From positions 1-32,778 of IMG/VR virus record IMGVR_UViG_3300013137_000067: a DNA stretch of 32,778 nucleotides. One strand, given 5' to 3'. Below are positions 975 through 27,195 of the stretch, one piece after another. This DNA comes from a virus. Every line of letters begins with the position of its first letter. The stretch's first letter is position 1. The notes below the pieces were generated by a model. It saw only the letters and a list, made by a program, of their open reading frames with translations. It was not told the origin of the DNA and made no database searches. A program made the translations under genes and the position numbers.

Positions 975-3587
975 TCAGGCATTCTGCACCCCCAGTCTGA
1001 GCGCGGCGCGGGCGAGAATTTCAGTCAGGCGATCTTCAAGATCATCGAACAGATCGGCTGAGTTGCCGGAGTTGTTTTCGAGTTGGATGGCCCCCTTTTG
1101 GAATATCACTGTAAACCCACGATCCTCGTTGGAAGAACTCGAACTGTTTCTACCTCCAGCTCTTTCCGTCGAGGTCGCTTCCATCGAAGGCATGCGCGGA
1201 GCTTCGAGGCTGATTGAGTTGAGCGAGTCCGAGACGGCCAGAGCCGGAGCGTCGGCGTTCTGTTGTATTCCACGGGAGAATGTCGGCAGCAGAGCGCGTC
1301 CGCTGGCGGTGAGTTGCGAGAGCGGACCTTCTTCGGCGTCGGAACCGGGCAGAAGCGCCCGCAGCCCGCCGAGCAGATCGGTGAAGCCTTCTTTCAGTGT
1401 TCCCCAGGCCGACTGTATGCCTTCCCAGAAAGCGTTGATAAGTCCTTCTCCGGCCTCGTTGAAAATATCTTTCAGGCCGTCCTGCCAGTTGAGCCAGGCG
1501 AAAAAGATGTTTTTAATGTTTTCCCATGCGGCGGAGAATGTTTCCTGCACGCTTTCCCATGCTCCTGCCCAGTCGCCTGTCAGCAGTTGCAAGCCTGCTT
1601 TAAAGACGCCGGTGATCAGGTTCAGAACCAGCGCGAGAGATTTGTAGATGGATGTCCAGACCGTCGTGACCGTCAGGGCAATGCCGTCCCATACAGCTTC
1701 AGAGACAACCTTGATGACTTCCCACGCGGTCGTGATATATGTCTGTATGAGATCTGCCCCGAAACCGACAAAATCTATCAGCGGCCCGAACGCGCTCAGC
1801 GCGACTTCCTTGATCAGCGGCCAAACTTCGGCGGTGTAATCGGAAATCACGTCCCAGGCATTCAGAAATACACCCACGAGGAAGCCGACACCGAAAGCTA
1901 CGGGTGTGGCCACTGCGTAAAAAGCGTCTTTCAAGCCCCCCAGAATCCTGGAAAAGGTTCCTGTGCCCTCGCCCATTTCATCCGTGCCGCTGGTAAAAAG
2001 CATCACCAGTCCGGTGATTCCAGCCACGAGCGCACCGACCGCCAGCAGCACCCCACCGGTCGAGACATGTACCGCTGCCATGGCGGTAGTCACCATGCCG
2101 CTCATCACCAGTGCTGCGCCTCCGACGAGCAATACACCCGCAGCAACGACAGCCAGTGTCACGGCGAATTTCATCAGTAGCGGATGTTCTTCGGCGAATT
2201 CAGACACCCCCACCGCTGCGTCGGAAAAGAAACCTGCGATCTTAGCCACAGATGGCAACAGCACATCGCCGATGGAAATAAGCATGCCCTGCAGGTTGGC
2301 TTTGGCGTCGCCCATGGCATCGCCGGCGCTGGCGTTGACTTTCTCGAAGGCTTCCGCCGTAGCTCCGCTAGAGTTCGTGACCTGATCCAGAATATTCGAG
2401 TATTTTTCAGCCTGACTGCCCGTCAGGGCGAAGACGCCCTGCAGTACCTTCACCGGCCCGAATAGTTTGGTCATGGCCTCGTCCGAACCGCCGGTCTTGA
2501 CTTTTACATCTTCCAGCCAGTTCGCCAGTCCCATGCTTTTAACCGCGGTAGCCGAGAAATCGATTCCCAGCTGGCGGGCAGTCTCGAGAGCTTCTTTTCC
2601 CGGATCGTTGATGGCGGATAGTACACCGCGCAGTGAAGATACCGCCTCGGTAGTGCTCATAACACCTGAGAGAGTAGAAGTGGCGGAGAGCAGCTCATTC
2701 AGTCCCACGCCGGCAGAGGATGCCAGCGGCGCAACCTTCCGGAGTGATCCGGCCAGCTCAGTCACAGACGTTTTTCCCATCTGAGCAGCGACAATGAACT
2801 GGTCTGAGACATTTGTAATACCTTCGGCCTGTACTTCGTAGGCGTTCATGATGGGAATAACTGAAGCAGCTGTATCTCCCATATCGCCATAGCTGGCGTC
2901 AGCCAGTCGCATTGAGCCTTCAAGTAACTTTGTGGCGGCGGAAGCTTCACGGAAACCGCCCTTGATTACAGTGGCAAGCGTCCCGGCGGTCTCGGTTGGA
3001 AGTGCGCCGATTTCACGCGAGAGGCCCTTCACATTGCCCTTCAGAATATCCATCTGGGATGCAGAAGCGCCCAGCAGGACATCCACTTCGGTCATGGCCG
3101 TGTCGAAATCCATCGACTTGTCGACGGCATAACCCAGTCCTGCCGCCAGCGCAGCACCGGCCAGCATGGCTTTCTTGCCCATGCTTTCCAGATTTACGGA
3201 AGCCTTGTAGGATTTCTTACCCACTTCATCCAGCTGCTCGGACGCAGCCGCACTCTCCGCCCCCAGTTCATCCAGCTGTACCGAAGTCGTTCCGCTCTCG
3301 GCACCCATATCTTCCAGTTTAACAGCGGTCTCATCGGTCTTTGCGCCCATATCTTCCAGGCGAGAGGACGCCTCTTCCGACCTAAGACCCAGTTCTTCCA
3401 TCTGGACAGAGGCCTCATCGAGCGAACCCGTATCAACCGTACCCAGTTCCATGTCGGAATTGACGGTCAGCATAGTGGATTGGGCAGTGTCTTTGAAAGA
3501 CAGCAGCGAGCTTTCGGCCTCCAGCAAGGGAGCGTTCAACTCGTTGAAGCCTTTCAGCAGCACACCGATTTCGCTCATGAAACCCAT
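975..3587 (-). CDS. Tail tape measure protein (TP901 type)
   Basis: The 870-residue protein sets tail length and fills the tail tube. Residues about 155-420 match the TP901-type core (SMDFDTAMTEVDVLLGAS, GALPTETAGTLATVIKGGF, MNAYEV). Two hydrophobic segments at about 471-495 and 511-532 look membrane-active, as is common in tape measures. Residues 60-143 form six tandem 14-residue repeats with a pattern like SVQLDELGAESAAA, predicted as coiled coil. The Ser-rich C-terminal region (about 815-825) precedes a short helical tail. The ATG directly follows the TAA of the frameshifted chaperone, so the two are translationally coupled. At roughly 1.5 angstrom per residue a tail near 130 nm is expected; that is an estimate. 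Confidence 0.93.
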   Translation of the reverse strand: MGFMSEIGVLLKGFNELNAPLLEAESSLLSFKDTAQSTMLTVNSDMELGTVDTGSLDEASVQMEELGLRSEEASSRLEDMGAKTDETAVKLEDMGAESGTTSVQLDELGAESAAASEQLDEVGKKSYKASVNLESMGKKAMLAGAALAAGLGYAVDKSMDFDTAMTEVDVLLGASASQMDILKGNVKGLSREIGALPTETAGTLATVIKGGFREASAATKLLEGSMRLADASYGDMGDTAASVIPIMNAYEVQAEGITNVSDQFIVAAQMGKTSVTELAGSLRKVAPLASSAGVGLNELLSATSTLSGVMSTTEAVSSLRGVLSAINDPGKEALETARQLGIDFSATAVKSMGLANWLEDVKVKTGGSDEAMTKLFGPVKVLQGVFALTGSQAEKYSNILDQVTNSSGATAEAFEKVNASAGDAMGDAKANLQGMLISIGDVLLPSVAKIAGFFSDAAVGVSEFAEEHPLLMKFAVTLAVVAAGVLLVGGAALVMSGMVTTAMAAVHVSTGGVLLAVGALVAGITGLVMLFTSGTDEMGEGTGTFSRILGGLKDAFYAVATPVAFGVGFLVGVFLNAWDVISDYTAEVWPLIKEVALSAFGPLIDFVGFGADLIQTYITTAWEVIKVVSEAVWDGIALTVTTVWTSIYKSLALVLNLITGVFKAGLQLLTGDWAGAWESVQETFSAAWENIKNIFFAWLNWQDGLKDIFNEAGEGLINAFWEGIQSAWGTLKEGFTDLLGGLRALLPGSDAEEGPLSQLTASGRALLPTFSRGIQQNADAPALAVSDSLNSISLEAPRMPSMEATSTERAGGRNSSSSSNEDRGFTVIFQKGAIQLENNSGNSADLFDDLEDRLTEILARAALRLGVQNA
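3159..3410 (-). repeat. Six 42-bp repeats encoding 14-residue coiled-coil units in the tape measure
   Basis: Residues 60-143 read as six consecutive 14-mers, each with a hydrophobic-acidic core of the type LEDMG or LDELG followed by a variable charged half. Fourteen residues equal two heptads. Expansion or contraction of such units could change tail length in register. Confidence 0.75.
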
Positions 3588-4395: not shown

Positions 4396-4872
4396 TTACA
4401 CCAGGCCTTCGGCTGTCAGCGCCGTGCCGGAAAGCTTGCGGCCCACAGATTCGTCATCCAGCGAGAAGCCGCCGGAGACTTCCGAAAACTCGAAGCCGAG
4501 GAAACGCGGGTTGCGCGTGAAGTTGTTCTTTTCGGGATAAATGATCAGAATCGTCAGGTTGCGCAGATCGAGCAGGTCCGAGAACTCGCGCGAACCGATT
4601 TTGAACTTCTTCAGCGTCACTTTGCGCGAGCGCGGCGAGTTTACCGCCTCCTCGATGACGGCCTTGTTCAACTCCTTGATTTCGAAGTCCAGCTCGAAGC
4701 TCTTGACTCCGCGTCCCATGGCGTGCGGCAGATTGTATCCCGCTCCGCGGATGGGCGTCTTGGGCTGGCTGGCCTTCCAGCTCAGATTCTGTATGCCCAT
4801 CAGTTTGATGCCATCGACCAGTACGGAGATTTCCTCTCCCGAAGTTCCCTGAATGAATCCTTCGTCAGCCAT
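4396..4872 (-). CDS. Tail tube protein (contractile tail)
   Basis: The 158-residue protein directly follows the sheath gene, as tube genes do in contractile phages. It has the size and beta-rich character of FII/XkdM-type tube proteins: an N-terminal strand region with VDGIKLMGIQNLSWKASQPK, a GRGVKSFELDFEI strand and a long positively charged segment near residues 80-95 that can form the inter-ring loop. GAGGTG precedes the ATG. It should polymerise as hexameric rings around the tape measure. Confidence 0.85.
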   Translation of the reverse strand: MADEGFIQGTSGEEISVLVDGIKLMGIQNLSWKASQPKTPIRGAGYNLPHAMGRGVKSFELDFEIKELNKAVIEEAVNSPRSRKVTLKKFKIGSREFSDLLDLRNLTILIIYPEKNNFTRNPRFLGFEFSEVSGGFSLDDESVGRKLSGTALTAEGLV

Positions 4873-4881
4873 CTAATCACC

Positions 4882-7149
4882 TCATTTCAGATAAACGGTG
4901 GTGTAAATCATTTCCATGGCGCGCAGCGGCTTAATGCCCAGCGAGACATACACATCTCCCAACAGGCGATTGGTCTCATCGGATACGGCCTCCAGTTCGA
5001 AATCGTCGATCTGGCCGGCGTCGCGCATCTGTTCGACCGGACGCGACATAGCCGATTCCAGCTTGCGCAGCCCCTCTCCGGCCTCGTCGTTTTCCTCTCC
5101 GACGTAAGGCTGGGCCGCTTCACGGGCCGCTTTTGCAGCGTAATAGACCGCGCGCAGATCATTAACGCGCGAGTAATCCGAGCCGGGAGCAGCCGCCGTC
5201 AGTGAATGCGCGATGATGAAGCCGCGTCCGGGCTTGAAGCGCACGCAATTGACTCTGCTCTGAATAAGCGTCTCGATCTGTCCGGGAGTGAACTCCGGGA
5301 TCAGTTCCAGCACACCTTTAACCGGCTTATTGATGAGCGATTTCTGCACCTCCAGACCGGCCATGGTTCCGCCGCAGGACGCAGTCAAAGGCAGCACAAC
5401 CGAGTTGCCGTCCGAGTTGGTAAATCTGGCTCCAGCGGGAAAGACGCAGGCGTTGCGATCGCCGTATTTCTGCATGCGGGTCTTGATGGAATCGACATAG
5501 GTCTGTACATCCGTCAAATATCCGGCGCTGTCCTTTATATGCACGCTTGAAAACGCCGGGGTTTCCAGTATGGCGAAGCGCTCGGCCTGGTGCAGACGCT
5601 CCATTTCATCGCAATGCAGCAGTATGGCTGTCCACAAAGCTTCGGTACTGGCTTCCACCGCATGGATCCACGAGGCTTCGGTTACGACCCGGGTCGCTTC
5701 CAGACCGGCCAGATAGTTGGCGTTGGTAATGGTTCCAGAATCGGCTCCGCCACTGAAAGCATCGAACTGCGTCGGATCCGGAACGCCATCTCCGCCCTCC
5801 AGCGAAGGCGAAAGCCACGATGGAGAATCAAGAAGAACTTCGGCTTCGTATACGCCGGCGGCGTTGACCAGCGCTGCCAGCGCGGCAGTGGCGCTGTCGA
5901 ATGTCCCGACGGCATTGAAAACACTCGTCGTAACCGGTGAAGTATTGCGGTCCTGAATAGTAAGAGTCGTTACCAGTTCGGCTGCAGCCACATGAGAAGC
6001 CAGTCCGTAAGCGTTCTGGCCGATATTCTCAGTGCCGACATACGTAAAGACCGATGTTTCACCCCAGACCACACTGAAACGCAGGAGGCGAGAGTAAGGA
6101 TAGGTTCCCTCATTGCGCACAGCTATCAGAATATTGCCCGAGTCATAGTCGTAAGCGATGCCTTCCGGGATATCTCCGCCGATCTGCCCGGCCAGGTCAA
6201 TTACTTCCGTCATTGCGGGAGTGTTGCCTGTGCGTTCGACGACAATTACACTCTTCTCGGTACGATTCAGCAGCAGATAACGGCGAGTGGTTTCCTCTCC
6301 GGCAGTGGTCGCAGCCAGATCCAGCGCGACACAGATCGAGGACACATCAGGTGCGGAAGGTGCTCCCAGATCGTCGGTATAGCTCCATTTCCTGATCAGA
6401 GTCGCCGTTTCACCGCTGATATCGATAAAGACCACATTCTTGTCGGTAACGGCTATCAACTCGCCTTTTGGGCGCGGTTCACTGCCCAGACCCACCAGCG
6501 TATCGCCGGAGGGTACTACCGCGGCCAGACTCAGACTGCGCACTATGGCGCCTTCAGAGCTCAGTTCCCACAGCATGGGGGTTGTCGTGCTGCCGTAACC
6601 CACGACACGATACGGCGCGCTGCCGTCCTTGAATACTGGAGCATCCACCCCCACCGGGGTAACGATTGCCGCCGGGAGAGCGATTTCTCCGAGCAGCTGC
6701 ATATCGGCGTCGTAACGCTGTATGCGATTAGTGCTGCGACACAATGCCAGATAAGCCGGAGTTATGGCCGTCAGAGTCTGAACGACGTTGGCGAAGTTGT
6801 TGTTGCCATCGGCACGGTAATCCGTCTTGAGTCGCAGAGCAGCGACTCCGGCGATATTCTTCAGGTCGATGGTCGCCCGGGCGGCGTTGCCGATGCGACA
6901 GGCGATTATGCGTGTGCTGCCGGCATCGAAAGCTGCTTCAATGTGGCGCAGCAACGGACCGCCTTTAAAGAGCGTCTTAGCCTGCTTCTTGGCGTCCGGA
7001 CCGGAGAGCGTATAAAGCTTGTATGGCTGTCCGCCTTCCGCCGGGCCGATTTTAATTTCAACATTGGCCAGCGAGGCCGCCACTACTCCCAGATGACCGT
7101 CTTCATAGTCGGTATAGGAATCTGGAATGATTCTTTTTACAGGACTCAT
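4882..7149 (-). CDS. Tail sheath protein with inserted beta-propeller-like region
   Basis: The C-terminal part (residues about 395-755) is a contractile tail sheath: VNCVRFKPGRGFIIAHSLT, DLRAVYYAAKAAREAAQ and a terminal helix-strand unit that links sheath subunits. The N-terminal part (1-124) has the sheath start and the GNNNFANVV segment of the outer domain. Between them, residues about 125-390 read as repeated four-strand blades: YLALCRSTNRIQRYDADM, GELIAVTDKNVVFIDISG, RYLLLNRTEKSVIVVE and PEGIAYDYDSGNILIAVRNE. This resembles NHL or SdiA-regulated-type beta-propellers. At 755 residues the protein is longer than most sheaths (often 400-500), the excess matching the insert. The sheath identity is firm; the propeller is read by eye. 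Confidence 0.92.
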   Translation of the reverse strand: MSPVKRIIPDSYTDYEDGHLGVVAASLANVEIKIGPAEGGQPYKLYTLSGPDAKKQAKTLFKGGPLLRHIEAAFDAGSTRIIACRIGNAARATIDLKNIAGVAALRLKTDYRADGNNNFANVVQTLTAITPAYLALCRSTNRIQRYDADMQLLGEIALPAAIVTPVGVDAPVFKDGSAPYRVVGYGSTTTPMLWELSSEGAIVRSLSLAAVVPSGDTLVGLGSEPRPKGELIAVTDKNVVFIDISGETATLIRKWSYTDDLGAPSAPDVSSICVALDLAATTAGEETTRRYLLLNRTEKSVIVVERTGNTPAMTEVIDLAGQIGGDIPEGIAYDYDSGNILIAVRNEGTYPYSRLLRFSVVWGETSVFTYVGTENIGQNAYGLASHVAAAELVTTLTIQDRNTSPVTTSVFNAVGTFDSATAALAALVNAAGVYEAEVLLDSPSWLSPSLEGGDGVPDPTQFDAFSGGADSGTITNANYLAGLEATRVVTEASWIHAVEASTEALWTAILLHCDEMERLHQAERFAILETPAFSSVHIKDSAGYLTDVQTYVDSIKTRMQKYGDRNACVFPAGARFTNSDGNSVVLPLTASCGGTMAGLEVQKSLINKPVKGVLELIPEFTPGQIETLIQSRVNCVRFKPGRGFIIAHSLTAAAPGSDYSRVNDLRAVYYAAKAAREAAQPYVGEENDEAGEGLRKLESAMSRPVEQMRDAGQIDDFELEAVSDETNRLLGDVYVSLGIKPLRAMEMIYTTVYLK

Positions 7150-7152
7150 TTC

Positions 7153-7353
7153 TTATTTCCCCTTCTTAGCCGGGCCGGCCAGCCATTCGTCGCGCAGGCG
7201 AATGAAGTTTTCCTTCTGCAGGCGAGTGCGCTGATTCCAGCCATAAGCAGCCTTAAGCGTCGCCAGCAGCGAATCGGACGTACCGGTCATTTTTGCAGCC
7301 TGTTCCACATCCAGAAGCTTCGGGCCATTGCCGTTGGCGTTTTCATATTTCAT
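7153..7353 (-). CDS. Small phage protein of unknown function
   Basis: A 66-residue basic protein starting MKYENANGNGPKLLD and ending GPAKKGK. AAGGAATTGAAGC precedes the ATG. Its start overlaps the end of the preceding tail-completion gene by 11 bases and its stop lies 3 bases before the sheath ATG, so it is cotranslated with the tail genes. The middle (VEQAAKMTGTSDSLLATLKAAYGW) is helical. No family recognised. Confidence 0.7.
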   Translation of the reverse strand: MKYENANGNGPKLLDVEQAAKMTGTSDSLLATLKAAYGWNQRTRLQKENFIRLRDEWLAGPAKKGK

Positions 7354-7909
7354 GCTTCAATTCCTTCTCTACAAGTACGCGCTCGATCACATGCTCGACC
7401 GGGCGTTCCACGTTCACATAGCGCAGAGCCTCCAGGCTCAGAGCTGCCCGGTACAGAAACGGTTCTCCGTTGGAGTCCGGAGTTACATTCTGTCGACCGA
7501 GAGGCTTCAATCCCTCAAGTCTGAATAGTTCCGGCGGATCGCATTCCGTATCCGTCAGCTCGAGCGGAGCAGTTTTCAGCCAGGTCTGAAGAGCCGCATT
7601 TTCCAGTCGCCGGATGATGTCGTCGGCGATCTCCTGACCGTTGCGCTGACGGTCCGAAGGCGTAGCCAGCGTCAGGCGGAATACACTTTTCTCGCTTAAA
7701 AGCCTGCCGGCGTGAGTCTGCCTGGCTCCGTTTCGACGGCTGTGCGTACATTTGCCGCAACCCACCGCCCTCGTGTCGTGGGATATCTCCTTGACCGTCA
7801 GGCTCGGATAATGCTTTTTCACGTTGACCAGATCGTCAGCGTAAACATGCAGACCTGCCACCACTGTGGCCGCCCAGATACCGATTGCGCGCACGAGACT
7901 GCCGCTCAT
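7343..7909 (-). CDS. Probable tail terminator/completion protein
   Basis: The 188-residue protein lies between the HK97 gp10-like protein and the sheath, the usual place of a tail terminator or completion protein. It begins with a hydrophobic helix (LVRAIGIWAATVVAGLHVYADDL), has a Cys pair in CGKC near residues 51-54, and contains FRLTLATPSDRQRNGQEIADD, reminiscent of the alpha-beta tail-completion fold. The ATG overlaps the stop of the gene before it (ATGA). Function is inferred mostly from position. Confidence 0.6.
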   Translation of the reverse strand: MSGSLVRAIGIWAATVVAGLHVYADDLVNVKKHYPSLTVKEISHDTRAVGCGKCTHSRRNGARQTHAGRLLSEKSVFRLTLATPSDRQRNGQEIADDIIRRLENAALQTWLKTAPLELTDTECDPPELFRLEGLKPLGRQNVTPDSNGEPFLYRAALSLEALRYVNVERPVEHVIERVLVEKELKHEI

Positions 7910-9014: not shown

Positions 9015-9468
9015 GTTCACAACTCCTTTCGTATTGCCGACCGAGCTGGGTATAAAGCAGCGGGTCGGATTGCGGTAGCAGCAGTTCTTCATCTGAAGCC
9101 GGGTTGATACGTCTGACACGCGCGTTGTACTCGGCCAGCAGCGACTTCTCCAGCTCAGCCCAGTTGGCGGCCTCCCTGCCCCGGCTGACGCTCTTGTCGC
9201 CTGAAGAGAAAGAAATCATGTTGGCGCTCTGGGCGCGCAGGTGGCGCAGAATCAGAATCTTTGTACGCAGAAACCAGACTTCGCGTTCGTCGGCGGACAT
9301 GACCGGTAAGACTTCACCGTCGTTCAGGCTGAAATTACGACCCATATCAGATGCAGCCACCGGCAGGGCACGTTCGGCCATACGCTCGGCGACTTCATCC
9401 TCTATAAGCGACTGGCCTTCCTCGTCACGGAAATCCATCTGGATGTCTTCGATCAATTCGTTCAGCAT
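9004..9468 (-). CDS. Phage head-tail connector (gp6-like) protein
   Basis: The 154-residue mostly helical protein (NELIEDIQMDFRDEEGQSL, SADEREVWFLRTKILILRH, WAELEKSLLAEYNARV) has the size and helical pattern of a connector that docks below the portal. It lies two genes after the capsid and before the neck genes. Its ATG overlaps the end of the glycosyltransferase gene by 7 bases, and its own end overlaps the lipoprotein start by 11 bases, so all are cotranslated. Confidence 0.62.
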   Translation of the reverse strand: MLNELIEDIQMDFRDEEGQSLIEDEVAERMAERALPVAASDMGRNFSLNDGEVLPVMSADEREVWFLRTKILILRHLRAQSANMISFSSGDKSVSRGREAANWAELEKSLLAEYNARVRRINPASDEELLLPQSDPLLYTQLGRQYERSCEHEG

Positions 9469-10625
9469 GCCGCCTTCTCCGCAAAATATGCCTGAACGGA
9501 TTTGCAGTAACGCCTTAAGGAATAGTTGCGTTCCACAAAGAGACGACCTTTCAGGCCGATCTCCCTGCGATTTGTATCCTGCGCCGCCTCAACCATCTGA
9601 GCTGCGTAGTAGTCTCGCTCGGTGGCATTCAGATCCAGACCGGATTTGGCTACCAGCCTGACCGCTCCAGAAGCCGCAAGCTCCGGCATGGCGCCCACCG
9701 ATGTGGTCACCATTGGAAGACCGCTGGCTATTGCTTCCAGAGCAGCCAACGGCATGCCTTCGAAGTGACTTGTCAGCAGAAACACATCCATCTGGCGGTA
9801 ATAAGTCTCTGGATCCGAAACAGCGCCGGTGATATGCACACAGTCTTCCAGCTTCATCTGCCTGATGAGCTGCTCAACCATGCGACGCTCGGCGTTCCAG
9901 TAAGCTTCATGCATCGGAACTCCCGGATCCGTTCCTCCCACCAGCATCAATCTGGCTTCTGGCAGCCTGGTTTTTGCACGTCTGAAACAATCCACCATGG
10001 TTACCAAAGCCTTCTCGCCCGAGAAACGTCCGCAGTAACCGAATATGGGTCCTTTGCTCCCGGGCCAGGGTGAGACAAACATTTCCCCTTCCAGAGAAGG
10101 ACGGAAACGCTCTGTGTCCACTCCGTTGGGCAACACATCCACCGCTCCGACAATATCGTTGCGCTGTTTAAGAATGCCCCGGGCGGCCTCGTCAGAGATA
10201 GTCAGGATATGCGCCCGTTCCGGCAGTTTTTCAGGAAGCATATCCATGGAAAAACGAGAATGACCATGCAGAAGAAAACCAAGATAGGCCGGAGCCAGCT
10301 TCAGCTTCTCAATTTCAGAAATGCAGTTTCTGGCAAGACGGCAATTGTTAAACAGCAGCACATCCGGCTTTTCGGCGGAGAGCAGGCTCAAAAACTCCCG
10401 CTCCCCGCCGCCGGTGCAGGACAGTACAGCAATTCCTGCATCCAGAAGGGGCTTGAACAATCCTTCGGAAGCCAGCGTCAGAAGTACGCCAACTCTGCGG
10501 CGTCCGCCTTCTGCCAGAGCGTTGGCCAGATCCACCGTGACCTTTTCGGACCCACCCAGACCCAGTGTTTCTCCGGCGATGATGATATATGGCTGCTGCT
10601 TCGCGTTCTTCTTCTTGCTGCTCAT
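9462..10625 (-). CDS. Glycosyltransferase, GT4/GT-B family
   Basis: The 387-residue protein has the two Rossmann-like halves of a GT-B enzyme. The N-terminal half shows GETLGLGGSEKVTVDLANAL (acceptor side). The C-terminal half shows FGYCGRFSGEKALVTMV, ARLMLVGGTDPG, VHITGAVSDPETYYRQMDVF and SHFEGMPLAALEAIASG, including the E-x7-E nucleotide-sugar motif typical of GT4. It transfers a sugar from a nucleotide or lipid donor to an unknown acceptor. The gene is embedded in the capsid/connector operon with overlapping neighbours, pointing to action on virion protein, virion-associated glycan or host surface late in infection. No signal peptide is present, so it should be cytoplasmic. Confidence 0.93.
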   Translation of the reverse strand: MSSKKKNAKQQPYIIIAGETLGLGGSEKVTVDLANALAEGGRRRVGVLLTLASEGLFKPLLDAGIAVLSCTGGGEREFLSLLSAEKPDVLLFNNCRLARNCISEIEKLKLAPAYLGFLLHGHSRFSMDMLPEKLPERAHILTISDEAARGILKQRNDIVGAVDVLPNGVDTERFRPSLEGEMFVSPWPGSKGPIFGYCGRFSGEKALVTMVDCFRRAKTRLPEARLMLVGGTDPGVPMHEAYWNAERRMVEQLIRQMKLEDCVHITGAVSDPETYYRQMDVFLLTSHFEGMPLAALEAIASGLPMVTTSVGAMPELAASGAVRLVAKSGLDLNATERDYYAAQMVEAAQDTNRREIGLKGRLFVERNYSLRRYCKSVQAYFAEKAAC

Positions 10626-11053: not shown

Positions 11054-11911
11054 TCAGGTGATTCTGATTTTGACCAGCAGATCGGAACGCGTGATGCCCT
11101 GCGCCGCTTCCATCCACGCCAGCCAGCCGGTCTTGAAGCGTTTGACCTCGTTGATGGTGTCGGTCTTGAGCTTCTCGCGAATGGCGTACTTGCCCACTTC
11201 CTCTTCCGGCACCAGAATGACCTCGCTCAAGGGCATGGTCGAAGTGCTGATGATGTCCGCGCCGTTGTATATCTTGAAGATGCCTTTCTGGCGCAGTTCC
11301 AGTTTGGTCTGCGGATCCAGCTCCCAGCCGCGCATGTCGTTGGCGCGAGCGCCGCGCAACATGATGTACTTGACACTCAGCTCCATGTCTTCGATGAGAC
11401 TGATGGCCTTGTTCATAGCCTCTTCAGTCAGCTTGCCGCCGGCCACCGTCACGATGCGATCGTTCGGCACCGCAGCCGAAAGAATGGTCACGGTGCGCCG
11501 GTCGATGGCCTTGCGGATTTCGTCAGCCGCCGATTTCTGGATGTCCAGCATGGTGCCGACATTGCCGTGCTTCAATACGGAAACGTCCACCATGGGCATG
11601 GAATGAATGCGGTGAACCGGAAATTCGACTTCCTCTTCCTGTACACCGGATTCCACCGCATCGCCGTCTTTGGAAATCCAGTAGGCTTTGACCTTCGGCT
11701 TCTTCTGGTACTTGGCGGGCTCGCCCACCGGCAGATTGTGCTTCGTTAAAAGCAGCGAAGTGATTTCCCTGGTCTGAATCTCCATGTCGATCAGCGGGGC
11801 GATGGCGGCGGCCAGAGCCTTGAGTCCCTCCGGACTGTCGGCGGCCTCGCTCATCAGCTGCGCCATGGTATCCATATAGGCTTCGCTGTGTACGTTGCTC
11901 AGTGCGTCCAT
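11054..11911 (-). CDS. Major capsid protein
   Basis: The 285-residue protein lies after the protease/scaffold and decoration genes, the canonical place for the HK97-fold capsid protein. The N-terminal 60 residues are helical, followed by VGEPAKYQKKPKVKAYWIS and an E-loop-like acidic segment. The middle carries KSAADEIRKAIDRRTVTIL and the end TDTINEVKRFKTGWLAWM with a final strand (DLLVKIRIT), in line with P- and A-domain order. A GGAGGG lies upstream of the ATG. Processing of the helical N-terminus by the upstream protease is possible. Confidence 0.85.
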   Translation of the reverse strand: MDALSNVHSEAYMDTMAQLMSEAADSPEGLKALAAAIAPLIDMEIQTREITSLLLTKHNLPVGEPAKYQKKPKVKAYWISKDGDAVESGVQEEEVEFPVHRIHSMPMVDVSVLKHGNVGTMLDIQKSAADEIRKAIDRRTVTILSAAVPNDRIVTVAGGKLTEEAMNKAISLIEDMELSVKYIMLRGARANDMRGWELDPQTKLELRQKGIFKIYNGADIISTSTMPLSEVILVPEEEVGKYAIREKLKTDTINEVKRFKTGWLAWMEAAQGITRSDLLVKIRIT

Positions 11912-12301: not shown

Positions 12302-12907
12302 TTATTCTTCGCCCGGCTGACCGGAGCGTTCCTTGTATGCCGCCATGAAACCGCGAGTCAGTCTGCTCGCCAGATCCTCAGAACCCTGATCCGAGGAATT
12401 GCGCGGAATGTTTCTGCGCGCCTCGGAATTCAATGCGGCCTTGGCTTTTTTGTTTTTCTTGTTGAATGGGAAGGGATTCTTCTTCTTTTCCTTCTCCTCT
12501 TCGTCGTTCTCGTCTTCACCTTCCGGCTCCTGCTCCTGGTCTTCTTCCTCCTCCGGCTTGTTTTTCTTCTTGCCGGCGGCGAATGCCGAAACAGTCTCTT
12601 CAGTGGCCGCGAAGGCGTCGTCCGACATCTTCATCAACCGCTCGATTTCAGCCGTGCGGGAGTTGTCGTCTGCGAACTCGCGTCCGGCTTCCTCCCACTT
12701 CGACAGCAGTTTCTCGGCCTTGGCCTTGCGCAGCATGGATTTGTGCGCCGCCTGGCTTTCGTCCAGACGCTTCTGCAAATCGTCTTTCTCTTTAGTCAGA
12801 CGCTCGATTTCCGACTGCTGACTTTTTGCCAGCTTGCGCAGCTCGGTTTCGGACATTTCGTCCACTTCGGGAGGCTGCGCCGCCTCTTTGCTCTTATCTT
12901 TATCCAT
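12302..12907 (-). CDS. Nested capsid scaffold protein (internal start)
   Basis: An in-frame ATG at 12905-12907 inside the fusion gene is preceded by a strong Shine-Dalgarno AAGGAGG (plus-strand 12911-12918, about 5 bases away). It would give a 201-residue protein MDKDKSKEAAQPPEVDEMSE with a coiled coil (ETELRKLAKSQQSEIERLTK), an acidic run and Lys-rich stretches near residues 110-160, and a helical C-terminus that could bind the capsid protein. This is the lambda C/Nu3 layout, where the scaffold is the C-terminal part of the protease gene made from its own start. Confidence 0.72.
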   Translation of the reverse strand: MDKDKSKEAAQPPEVDEMSETELRKLAKSQQSEIERLTKEKDDLQKRLDESQAAHKSMLRKAKAEKLLSKWEEAGREFADDNSRTAEIERLMKMSDDAFAATEETVSAFAAGKKKNKPEEEEDQEQEPEGEDENDEEEKEKKKNPFPFNKKNKKAKAALNSEARRNIPRNSSDQGSEDLASRLTRGFMAAYKERSGQPGEE

Positions 12908-14785
12908 CGTTCCTCCTTGCTTGTTACGGCTCGCCACCCGACCGATCTCTGCGCCCGGATCGGCGCCCTCTCGATCCAGCAGCCCCATGCCGGTGAATGT
13001 GATGTTGTGCAGAATTTCGTAGCAGGACTTGCCCTTGAAATCCCGGCCTTTGAAGTTCTTCAGATGTATGCAGTATTCGGCTTTGCTGCGGATGCGCTTG
13101 CCGCAGATCGAGCATTCGCCTTCCTGGTAGTCGCATTCCATCGAAACATGACTGACGATCTTCTGACGCATGAGCTTGTATGCCAGACGCGCCGGTTCGG
13201 AAACCGTGGTGTAGAGATCGCCCAGACAGGCCACATGCGATTTGGCTCCGGCTTCCACATATTTCGACTCTGCGATGCCGCCCACGATATCCCGGAATTC
13301 CTGCGAGTGCGACAGGTCGATCTTCCTGCCTATGGCCGTCGAAGCGGCCTGGCGCAGTTCTTCCGGTGTAAAATGATCTCCGTTGCGATTAGTGCCGACG
13401 TGCGTCAGTATGAATGGAAAACGCCGGTCGCCGGTGGCGCTCTCGGATTCCGCCTGTAGATTGCCTATGCTTTCCAGCAGTCCTTCCACGCGCGTGTGCA
13501 TGTTCGGTTTCTCGGCTGCGGCCTGAAGCGTTTCTTCCACCGGCGCCATTTCAACAGACATGTCGGAAGCTGCACAGTACAGCTCCTCGCCGCCCACGCA
13601 TTCGGCCTTCGTGCCCTCCGGCCAGCAGACAAACAGGCGCTCCAGCGCTTGCGAGTTTTCGCCGTGTTTGGCCGAAATCATGTAATTCAGTTCGCGGCTG
13701 CGCATTCGGCTGGCCCGTCCCACGCCCGCGATGATTTTCTTGATCTCGGCTTCAGCCGGGTAAGCCTGGTCGCGATAGGAAATCAGCCAGTGCGGAATGT
13801 GTTTGGCCGCCGTCAGGAAGCCCTTGAAGAACTCACCGGCGTTGCTCTGCGTGACCTCGGTAGGAATATCGTACTGGCGCGTCAGGGTGTCCTTGCGGAT
13901 TTCCTTGCCTTCCCACCAGCTCATAAGGCCTTCGATGAAGTGATAGGCGCGCTCGTAGTTGGTCTGCGAAAAGTGCGTGGCGTATGGCGGATCGAAATAG
14001 GCCACTTCGGCCTCCACCTTGCCGATCAGCTCGCGCGTGTCGCCGTGATGCGCTTTGCAGGGGTGCTCACCCTTGAACACCAGCTCGCTGATGCGTTTGC
14101 AGTTTGAAGCGAAACGCTCGCGGAACTCCGCCGGATTGTCGGCCCGATTGTCCTGCTTGCGCGTGGTCCCGAAATGCCCGAAGCCGCCCTTGCCGGTGAT
14201 GCAGGTCTTGCCCAGCGCAAAGAGCGCGATGTCTTTCTTGTAGCCTTCAAGTTTGTCGCAGTTCGAGCGGATGATGTCGATGACGGAATGCACACCCGGC
14301 TCGAAATACAAGCCCTTGAAGTTTTTACGCACAAAATCCTTCACGCCGGAGCCGTCGGCCATCAGGCCTTCAATCTCCTCATCCGAAAGCTTGACGTTGT
14401 CGTTCTCGACAATGGCGCGTGCGATGTGATGGCAGTATGCCAGACGATCCAGCGAATGCACCGCCAGACCCTTCGACTTGTACATGTAGCCCACCACAGA
14501 CGAGCCGGAAAAAGCATCCGCAACCGACTCGGCGTCCTGCGGCGTGGCCGCCCAGATCCAGTCGATAAGCTTCTGCTTGGAGCCGATGTAGTTGGTGATG
14601 TACTTCGGGCGCTCCTCGGCAGCCGCCTGCGCTTCCGCATCGGACTCTGAGCGAGGCTCCGCGCCGGTGGCGCTTTGGGATTCGTCGCCGGAAGTCTCCG
14701 CATCGACAAAAAGGCGCTCGGCCTGGTTCAGGTCCGCTTCGGCTTCCAGCAGGAAATTCAGTCTGTCCGCATCGCTTCGAAACAT
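12302..14785 (-). CDS. Fusion: N6-adenine DNA methyltransferase + prohead protease + scaffold
   Basis: This 827-residue frame has three parts. Residues about 60-410 are an adenine-N6 DNA methyltransferase of the D12/Dam type: NYIGSKQKLIDWIW, DAFSGSSVVGYMYKSKG, and catalytic DPPY in VAYFDPPYATHF. Residues about 450-620 are a prohead protease: THVGTNRNGDHFTPEEL, a His in KIDLSHSQEF, a Ser in VSHVSMEC, then a Cys/His cluster (CSICGKRIRSKAEYCIHL) and a closing FTGMGLLDREGADPG. Residues 627-827 are the scaffold, also startable internally. The start at 14785 follows AAGGAA; an upstream ATG at 14833 would run through the leader stem. The protease and scaffold order is normal; the methyltransferase in the same frame is not. 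No internal ribosome site separates methyltransferase from protease, so a true fusion is likely. Confidence 0.88.
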   Translation of the reverse strand: MFRSDADRLNFLLEAEADLNQAERLFVDAETSGDESQSATGAEPRSESDAEAQAAAEERPKYITNYIGSKQKLIDWIWAATPQDAESVADAFSGSSVVGYMYKSKGLAVHSLDRLAYCHHIARAIVENDNVKLSDEEIEGLMADGSGVKDFVRKNFKGLYFEPGVHSVIDIIRSNCDKLEGYKKDIALFALGKTCITGKGGFGHFGTTRKQDNRADNPAEFRERFASNCKRISELVFKGEHPCKAHHGDTRELIGKVEAEVAYFDPPYATHFSQTNYERAYHFIEGLMSWWEGKEIRKDTLTRQYDIPTEVTQSNAGEFFKGFLTAAKHIPHWLISYRDQAYPAEAEIKKIIAGVGRASRMRSRELNYMISAKHGENSQALERLFVCWPEGTKAECVGGEELYCAASDMSVEMAPVEETLQAAAEKPNMHTRVEGLLESIGNLQAESESATGDRRFPFILTHVGTNRNGDHFTPEELRQAASTAIGRKIDLSHSQEFRDIVGGIAESKYVEAGAKSHVACLGDLYTTVSEPARLAYKLMRQKIVSHVSMECDYQEGECSICGKRIRSKAEYCIHLKNFKGRDFKGKSCYEILHNITFTGMGLLDREGADPGAEIGRVASRNKQGGTMDKDKSKEAAQPPEVDEMSETELRKLAKSQQSEIERLTKEKDDLQKRLDESQAAHKSMLRKAKAEKLLSKWEEAGREFADDNSRTAEIERLMKMSDDAFAATEETVSAFAAGKKKNKPEEEEDQEQEPEGEDENDEEEKEKKKNPFPFNKKNKKAKAALNSEARRNIPRNSSDQGSEDLASRLTRGFMAAYKERSGQPGEE

Positions 14786-14808
14786 CCGCCGTTTCTTCCT
14801 TGAACAAA

Positions 14809-14903
14809 AAAAACGGCGACCCGACATCCGCACGAAGATCCGATCACCTTAAAAACAAAAAGGGGATGGATTTTCTCCGTAAGAATGTCGGGCCGCCGTT
14901 TTT
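14809..14903 (-). terminator. Leader hairpin followed by U-run (attenuator-like)
   Basis: Arms at 14809-14827 and 14885-14903 are 19 bases each and complementary except one pair, which is a G-U wobble in minus-strand RNA but an A-C mismatch in plus-strand RNA. After the second arm the minus transcript reads eight U. The loop is 57 bases. The structure ends about 20 bases before the methyltransferase-protease start, inside the transcript from the 15003-15031 promoter, so it could attenuate or be overcome by antitermination. Confidence 0.55.
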
Positions 14904-25694: not shown

Positions 25695-26591
25695 ATGGTT
25701 CCGCGTAAATATGATTCACCGGCGGCCTTTAAACAGGCGCTGGAGCAGAGACTTAAGTCAAGCTCGAAGGACGGATATGACTTTGCCAGGAGACGGCAAC
25801 TGCTGGTCTTCGATCGCTTCATTGCTCGAGTGCAGAGCTTGCTGGGTAAGTCTGTAGTGCTCAAGGGCGGACTGGTTCTGGAACTGCGGCTGGCAAGAGC
25901 CAGAACGACCAGAGACGTTGACCTTCGCATAACCGGCCCGGCAGAAAACATTCTGGACCGTCTACAGGAGGCTGGCCAGCTTGATCTGGGTGATTTCATG
26001 ACATTCGAAGTGCGACCCGACCCGGTTCACCCGGACATCAAAAACGACGGAAAGCCTTACGACGGCCAGCGTTTTCGCACAGAGGCCAGATTGGCCGGCA
26101 AGCTGTACGGTCAGGCATTTGGTGTCGACATAGGTTTTGCCGATCCGATTCTTGGAGAGCCGGAACTTCAAAGCGCCTCAGACCTGCTTGCATTCGCAGC
26201 TATTCCAACTCCGGTATTTCTCGTTTATCCGGTCGAGTCGCATATTGCAGAAAAACTCCATGCCTACACAATGCCCCGGCAGAGAGAAAACTCGCGGGTT
26301 AAGGATTTGCCGGATATCGCCTTGCTGGGCAAGATACGCGAGCTGGATGGAGACAGATTGCGATTGGCGCTTGAGCGGACCTTCGAGTTTCGCGGCACAC
26401 ATTCCATACCGGACTTCTTGCCGGACCCTCCCAGCGCCTGGAGCGAAGTTTACCGTCGAATGGCGCTGGAGGATGATCTGGAGTGGATCGATATGCCTGG
26501 CCTGCTGAAAGCGGCGCGCACATTTCTTTACCCGATTCTGGCAGGAAAGAAAAATCTGCATTGGTCCCCGTCGCAGTGGCAATGGAAATAA
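25695..26591 (+). CDS. abiEii: AbiEii-type nucleotidyltransferase toxin
   Basis: The 298-residue protein shows the AbiEii/AbiGii nucleotidyltransferase motifs: VVLKGGLVLELRLARARTT followed by RDVDLRI (the GG and D-x-D catalytic set), then PVESHIAEKLHAYTMP and KDLPDIALLGK. It transfers nucleotides, with known relatives targeting tRNA ends, and gives abortive infection or plasmid maintenance. It starts 20 bases after the antitoxin stop and ends 4 bases from the convergent recombinase. Confidence 0.9.
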   Translation: MVPRKYDSPAAFKQALEQRLKSSSKDGYDFARRRQLLVFDRFIARVQSLLGKSVVLKGGLVLELRLARARTTRDVDLRITGPAENILDRLQEAGQLDLGDFMTFEVRPDPVHPDIKNDGKPYDGQRFRTEARLAGKLYGQAFGVDIGFADPILGEPELQSASDLLAFAAIPTPVFLVYPVESHIAEKLHAYTMPRQRENSRVKDLPDIALLGKIRELDGDRLRLALERTFEFRGTHSIPDFLPDPPSAWSEVYRRMALEDDLEWIDMPGLLKAARTFLYPILAGKKNLHWSPSQWQWK

Positions 26592-26595
26592 TCGC

Positions 26596-27195
26596 TCACT
26601 CCTGCAGCCCTCTGGACTTTAGCCACATATAAAGCGCCTGCGTGGTGACGCCGTAGCGTTTGGCAATGAACCTGCGCGTGCTGCCGTTGGCCAGCAGGGC
26701 TTCGATCTCAGGCCGCACAACGTCGAGGCGCGACGAGAAAGAGCCGCGCGGGCGACCCAGAGCCATGCCCATCGCCTTCTTGGCGCGCAGGGCTTCCTTC
26801 GTCCGGCTGGATATCAACTCGCGTTCGATCTCCGACGCCATAGCGAAGACCATGGCCACTATTTTCGATTGCAGCGAGCCGTCCAGACGCCAATCGCCTT
26901 TGGCCGAGTACACGCGCACTCCACGCGATGACAGCACAGACAGTAACTCCATCACCTCCAGCATCGAACGCCCGAGGCGCGAGAGTTCGGATACCAGCAA
27001 AGCATCGCCTTCGGCCAGGCGCTCGACCAATTCTCCAAGCTTACGCTTGCGCCAGGGCGTCCGACCGCTGATCTTCTCCTCCACCCATTCAACCTGACCA
27101 AGTCGCTCGCGGTTGGCCAGCAAAAGAATATCGGCGCGGTTCTTGTCAAGATCCTGCTCTTCAGTCGAAACTCTCATGTAGGCGTAGGTTGACAT
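26596..27195 (-). CDS. Small serine recombinase (resolvase/invertase family)
   Basis: The 199-residue protein has the resolvase fold start with nucleophilic Ser (YAYMRVSTEEQDLDKNR), SELSRLGRSMLEVMELL, the E-helix (IVAMVFAMASEIERELI) and a C-terminal HTH (TRRFIAKRYGVTTQALYMWL). Such enzymes invert, resolve or in a few cases integrate DNA. It is the only complete recombinase in the window. GAGGAAAAG precedes the ATG. A 26-bp dyad lies 45 bases upstream. Confidence 0.93.
   Translation of the reverse strand: MSTYAYMRVSTEEQDLDKNRADILLLANRERLGQVEWVEEKISGRTPWRKRKLGELVERLAEGDALLVSELSRLGRSMLEVMELLSVLSSRGVRVYSAKGDWRLDGSLQSKIVAMVFAMASEIERELISSRTKEALRAKKAMGMALGRPRGSFSSRLDVVRPEIEALLANGSTRRFIAKRYGVTTQALYMWLKSRGLQE

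Follow-up and report, generated by a model that had tools for sequence, protein, structure and literature searches.

The window analysed here is the whole of an IMG/VR virus contig, 32,778 bases long. Its minus strand carries a tail module with the following genes and sheath parts.

4882..7149, minus strand: contractile tail sheath gene, 755 aa (Pfam and PHROG matches)
6799..7149, minus strand: N-terminal core of the sheath, residues 1-117 (conserved among relatives; matches known sheaths)
4885..5736, minus strand: C-terminal core of the sheath, subtilisin-like and C-terminal domains, residues 472-755 (Pfam; identity among relatives)
4396..4872, minus strand: probable tail tube gene, 158 aa (by position; weak PHROG match)
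975..3587, minus strand: tape measure protein, 870 aa (PF10145, E 5.5e-26; phrog_1272, E 2.7e-59)

By curated profiles and gene neighbourhood, the 755-aa ORF is a contractile phage tail sheath. It matches three Pfam sheath families, namely DUF2586 (PF10758; residues 14-725, 62.7 bits against a cut-off of 26.4), Phage_sheath_1 (PF04984; residues 472-651, 41.5 bits against 31.4) and Phage_sheath_1C (PF17482; residues 656-754, 34.8 bits against 26.9), as well as the tail sheath family phrog_279, which agrees with the earlier note's description of a clear tail sheath. The N-terminal core matches the phage 812 sheath (5li2_A, E 1.9e-7) and also that of phiYS40. Sheath families are recognised on both the N- and the C-terminal sides of the segment discussed below, and sheath sequence resumes around it as the earlier note had proposed. 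The putative tube gene lies directly downstream of the sheath gene both in the window and in relatives (for example at 8152-8628 of L064), and the sheath module of the relatives L064 and L069 is succeeded by genes for a baseplate hub, a base V spike, and proteins of gp25-like and J-like type. The tape measure gene in the window, taken together with these baseplate genes in relatives, points to a contractile-tail module of a real contractile phage. A plus-strand ORF overlapping the sheath gene (5992-7524) was rejected as a gene and regarded as an antisense open frame, since the sheath frame has both family matches and dN/dS values below 1.

Elsewhere in the window, an HK97-fold major capsid protein (NF042927) is encoded at 11054-11911 on the minus strand, its only match among phage records being gp27 of Bacillus phage G (28.5% identity). 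The capsid gene is adjoined by a gene for an 843-residue D12-class DNA methyltransferase (12302-14833, minus strand; phrog_27806), and a methyltransferase of this class adjoins the module in relative L069 as well. A glycosyltransferase gene (9462-10625, minus strand) is located between the head and tail genes, and its product might glycosylate the virion or the host surface. Amid these minus-strand structural genes, a lone plus-strand gene with an Lcl_C domain (PF07603; 15234-16370) sits between the methyltransferase gene and that for a Mu-F-like head protein. Further along, the plus-strand gene at 25695-26591 harbours an AbiEii-type nucleotidyltransferase toxin domain and is adjoined by a resolvase gene at 26596-27195.

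The DUF2586 match spreads 344 profile positions over 712 residues of the sheath, which indicates several hundred additional residues within it. The earlier note had placed this insertion at residues 125-390, corresponding exactly to positions 5980-6777 of the window; the segment itself was recovered, with slightly wider limits of about residues 118-400 once the presumed stalk strands are included. No significant Pfam or PHROG profile match to the extra segment was obtained in any of seven relatives, and neither Pfam, PHROG, PDB nor the phage records returned a significant sequence match to a known adhesin. The best sequence hint for residues 125-390 was PF06977 (SdiA-regulated, YjiK family; E 0.23), which at 11 bits remained below the gathering score of 21 and vanished when the insert boundaries were shifted slightly. 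Sequence matches of the insert to acylphosphatases in the PDB (E 0.08) span only about 32 residues and were discarded as chance. Profile self-alignment of the insert, using seven sequences, nevertheless revealed an internal repeat with an offset of about 47 residues, its off-diagonal score of 25.5 standing against 12.7 ± 2.1 (maximum 18.8) in 100 column shuffles; the same procedure gave 16.9 for the sheath core.

Structures were modelled as monomers with AlphaFold2 from only seven sequences, for the whole protein and for the domain alone (residues 117-404). The latter model reached a pLDDT of 88.7 and a pTM of 0.87, with 20 strands in a five-by-four order, whereas in the whole-protein model the insert had pLDDT values mostly of about 80-92 and the sheath core was poor, mostly below 50 after residue 439. 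The predicted strands run in the order B-C-D of blade 1, A-D of blades 2 to 5 and a final strand at residues 382-388, and were assigned as follows.

5986..6765, minus strand: predicted five-bladed beta-propeller, residues 129-388 (AlphaFold2 and VIA-align)
6766..6798, minus strand: presumed entry stalk strand, residues 118-128 (both models begin with a long strand)
6679..6765, minus strand: predicted blade 1, strands B-D, residues 129-157 (DSSP on models)
6529..6660, minus strand: predicted blade 2, residues 164-207 (DSSP on models)
6382..6498, minus strand: predicted blade 3, residues 218-256 (DSSP on models)
6196..6345, minus strand: predicted blade 4, residues 269-318 (DSSP on models)
6022..6171, minus strand: predicted blade 5, residues 327-376 (DSSP on models)
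5986..6006, minus strand: probable closing strand (strand A of blade 1, Velcro-type), residues 382-388 (from strand order and match span)
5950..5985, minus strand: presumed exit stalk strand into the sheath, residues 389-400 (both models end in a long strand)

The strand order in the models suggests closure of the ring through pairing of residues 382-388 with blade 1, and the pTM is high. Both models also have a long strand at either end of the domain (residues 118-137 and 382-400), and these lengths suggest that residues 118-128 and 389-400 pair as a two-stranded stalk. Comparison of the domain with known structures using VIA-align gave as the best match 3mbr, a Xanthomonas glutaminyl cyclase (Z 18.4; 2.5 Å over 195 residues), followed by the calcium-activated nucleotidase 2h2u (Z 17.8; 3.8 Å over 228 residues), YjiK 3qqz (Z 17.6; 2.8 Å over 198 residues) and the Zymomonas glutaminyl cyclase 3nol (Z 17.3; 2.9 Å over 195 residues), while six-bladed NHL, YWTD and Pizza propellers ranked next (Z about 14-15). 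All four leading matches are five-bladed structures. For 3NOL this fits its being the best DALI match of the five-bladed propeller of Gp45, the receptor-binding protein of Staphylococcus phage phi11 (PMC4901313); the phi11 structure itself was absent among the 50 fold matches listed, which is no evidence against similarity. The insert thus resembles the glutaminyl cyclases (3mbr, 3nol) and YjiK (3qqz) in its propeller fold (Z 17.3-18.4), but shares only 10-16% identity with them and has no family profile match; for the glutaminyl cyclase family in particular, neither Pfam nor PDB returned a sequence match.

Prediction and fold comparison together support a five-bladed beta-propeller as the fold of the insert. 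The propeller that the earlier note had read inside the sheath is accordingly borne out by two predictions and the fold comparison, the modelling of the whole sheath and the domain fold search that it had called for yielding a five-bladed propeller with high confidence and not some other fold. Its count of at least five blade-like repeats likewise finds a counterpart in a repeat score above all 100 shuffles and in five modelled four-stranded blades. The matches listed from the Foldseek viral library include two large sheaths from uncultured phages, A0A6J5MBK7 (804 aa) and A0A6J5SUT6 (1008 aa), as well as A0MN87, which at 648 aa agrees in length with the phiYS40 sheath. The first two may match through their sheath part or may carry propellers themselves, and uniqueness of the propeller-bearing sheath is therefore not claimed.

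Relatives were found with a C-terminal alignment query, single-protein scans of viral_contigs and genome_contigs having returned none. Six IMG/VR contigs encode sheaths that are 81-84% identical over the last 165 residues; all six carry the complete insert, in sheaths of about 760-775 residues, and a further contig, L075, ends partway through the insert, the first blades of which are present. The lineage is small, comprising eight known sheaths, all metagenomic. When viral contigs were scanned with the insert profile, nothing beyond the above six came up, no significant relative of the insert was detected among 50,697 phage records or among plasmids, and genome_contigs yielded no relative even with the seven-sequence alignment, so that no link to a host or prophage was found.

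Across seven sheaths, mean pairwise identity amounted to 71.8% for residues 1-110, 38% for the insert, 49% for residues 391-470, 72% for residues 471-651 and 90% for residues 652-755. The dN/dS values of the insert ranged from 0.24 to 0.55, against 0.09-0.30 for the cores, and dN was about three- to six-fold higher in the insert than in the C-terminal core. The insert is under weaker purifying selection, and a dN/dS below 1 on average fits either relaxed constraint or diversification. Insert and core distances are correlated (r 0.84), which indicates that the propeller descends with its sheath. Recombination as the source of the divergence of the insert was judged the poorer fit: this correlation and an only moderate difference in dS are better explained by vertical descent with accelerated amino-acid change. 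The alignment contains 22 invariant residues within the insert, which, read against the strand map, look mostly structural, and no active site was identified.

The sheaths of L076 (651 aa) and L077 are more distant: they resemble the N-terminal core but diverge beyond it, with no significant alignment to the propeller; no ordinary sheath was found to align across the segment, as it might if the insert were common sheath sequence. Against all these distant sheaths, a profile with the two flanks joined slightly outscored the whole profile, consistent with a domain insertion. In L077 (5700-5860), as in L078 and L079, the sheath gene is split into two ORFs at a Thr/Pro-rich TTTTVAP-type repeat; in L077 this repeat carries on in the +1 frame, which points to a frameshift or to a sheath made in two parts. 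Moorella phage MTATph1 (L002, 1195-3504) encodes a 769-residue sheath whose extra region has DUF2460 matches and no propeller, and a second gene of this phage is annotated as sheath.

In T4, domain I of gp18 (residues 98-188) is inserted in domain II and protrudes from the tail without sheath-sheath contacts (PMC3004832). The insert considered here starts near residue 118 and is the same kind of addition, from which outward projection would be expected; by this analogy, and from the fast divergence of the insert, the propeller is inferred to project outward from the tail surface. The five-bladed propeller platform of phi11 Gp45, whose cavity could hold GlcNAc (PMC4901313), has the same fold and is the reason to consider glycan or host binding for the propeller. 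The two precedents combined suggest, as a best guess, that weak binding sites for the host surface are arrayed over the whole sheath. The propeller would be spliced into the outer sheath on a two-stranded stalk, leaving the subunit still able to polymerise, and would project outward from the tail. The number of copies can be estimated from the tape measure: 870 residues at about 1.5 Å per residue correspond to some 1300 Å and hence, at the sheath ring rise of 36.2 Å reported for A-1(L) (PMC10966104), to about 36 rings and about 200 propellers. Each tail might thus display roughly two hundred copies, which would serve as a multivalent adhesin of low affinity and keep the tail against host-surface molecules, probably glycans, while the baseplate would make the committing contact. 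The low identity of the insert (38%, against 72-90% in the core) and its raised dN are of the kind expected for surface-type evolution and were counted in favour of adhesion. Such a stalked, outward array of about 200 weak host-surface adhesins per tail is considered the most likely use of the domain, with a probability somewhat short of even. The stronger version, in which the sheath is a receptor-binding array of about 200 glycan-binding propellers, with recognition along the whole tail and not only at the baseplate, and with a propeller that diversifies in the manner of a receptor-binding protein on a fixed motor, is put forward only tentatively and is rather unlikely.

The main alternatives, in descending order of probability, are fibre docking, stabilisation and enzymatic activity. 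The propeller may serve as a docking or assembly surface, holding retracted tail fibres or decorations or starting sheath assembly at the baseplate. This possibility, a doubtful one but the best placed of the alternatives, draws on the outward insertion of T4 gp18, where domain I attaches to the baseplate and to the long tail fibres in their retracted state (PMC3004832), and on the use of propellers as protein-binding platforms, including the subunit contacts in the T7 and SU10 tails (PMC6702177; PMC9509320); yet a fixed partner should have kept the surface more conserved than 38%, and neither the window nor the short, incomplete relative contigs show fibre genes that might supply such a partner. 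It is less probable that the propeller merely stabilises or shields the sheath, as a cementing or protective decoration with no specific ligand. A tail-cementing role has been put forward for extra sheath domains (PMC9230969), and rapid change with weak purifying selection is compatible with a domain that chiefly has to fold, but a 270-residue domain, complete in all full-length relatives, is costly for a small phage, and a simpler one could serve as a pure spacer. An enzyme of the glutaminyl cyclase, nucleotidase or glycosidase type, acting along the tail on host-surface material, is suggested by the closest folds (3mbr, 3nol and 2h2u being enzymes) and is very unlikely, as fold likeness among propellers says little about function, no family profile matches and the invariant residues look mostly structural. 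Least probable of all is that another beta-rich domain was over-read from weak repeats: domains added to sheaths are usually Ig-like (PMC9230969) and the sequence-only evidence is weak (PF06977, E 0.23), but the model is confident, the top matches are all propellers and the repeat exceeds the shuffles.

Weak, multivalent host-surface binding is the preferred reading, and the predicted propeller offers a fold with a receptor-binding precedent, an apparent two-stranded stalk and a variable domain on a conserved sheath motor. For extra outer sheath domains, a role in virion stability or adsorption could only be proposed in a survey of 112 modelled sheaths (Evseev et al., 2022; PMC9230969), and the propeller insert provides a separable test case that could be expressed alone and probed for ligands. 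The sheath apparently tolerates a globular insertion of about 270 residues. Sheaths with outer insertion domains are already known; within the literature searched, a five-bladed propeller as the insert is new. No description of a propeller in a contractile sheath was found in the open literature, with few subscription papers and preprints covered, and the word "propeller" is absent from the text of the 112-sheath survey (PMC9230969).

In that survey, the extra domains were mostly Ig-like, and helical in AR9 and PBS1, and small phages had shorter sheaths of one or two domains (Evseev et al., 2022; PMC9230969). The present sheath resembles its multidomain (type 2/3) representatives in combining a conserved core with extra outer domains. 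It is like T4 gp18 in that the insertion occurs near the sheath N-terminus and sheath sequence resumes after it, but T4 domain I comprises 91 residues folded as a six-stranded beta-barrel with a helix, whereas here a five-bladed propeller of about 270 residues is predicted. Beta-propellers also occur as structural tail parts in T7 gp12 and the SU10 nozzle proteins (PMC6702177; PMC9509320), although these have seven blades and occur in small number, in short-tailed phages, where they sit at the DNA channel. The phi11 Gp45 platform is likewise a five-bladed propeller in a phage tail protein with 3NOL as its nearest fold; however, it belongs to a trimeric baseplate protein of a siphophage, present as six trimers, whereas the propeller predicted here lies within the sheath ORF of a contractile tail and not in a separate receptor-binding protein of the baseplate.
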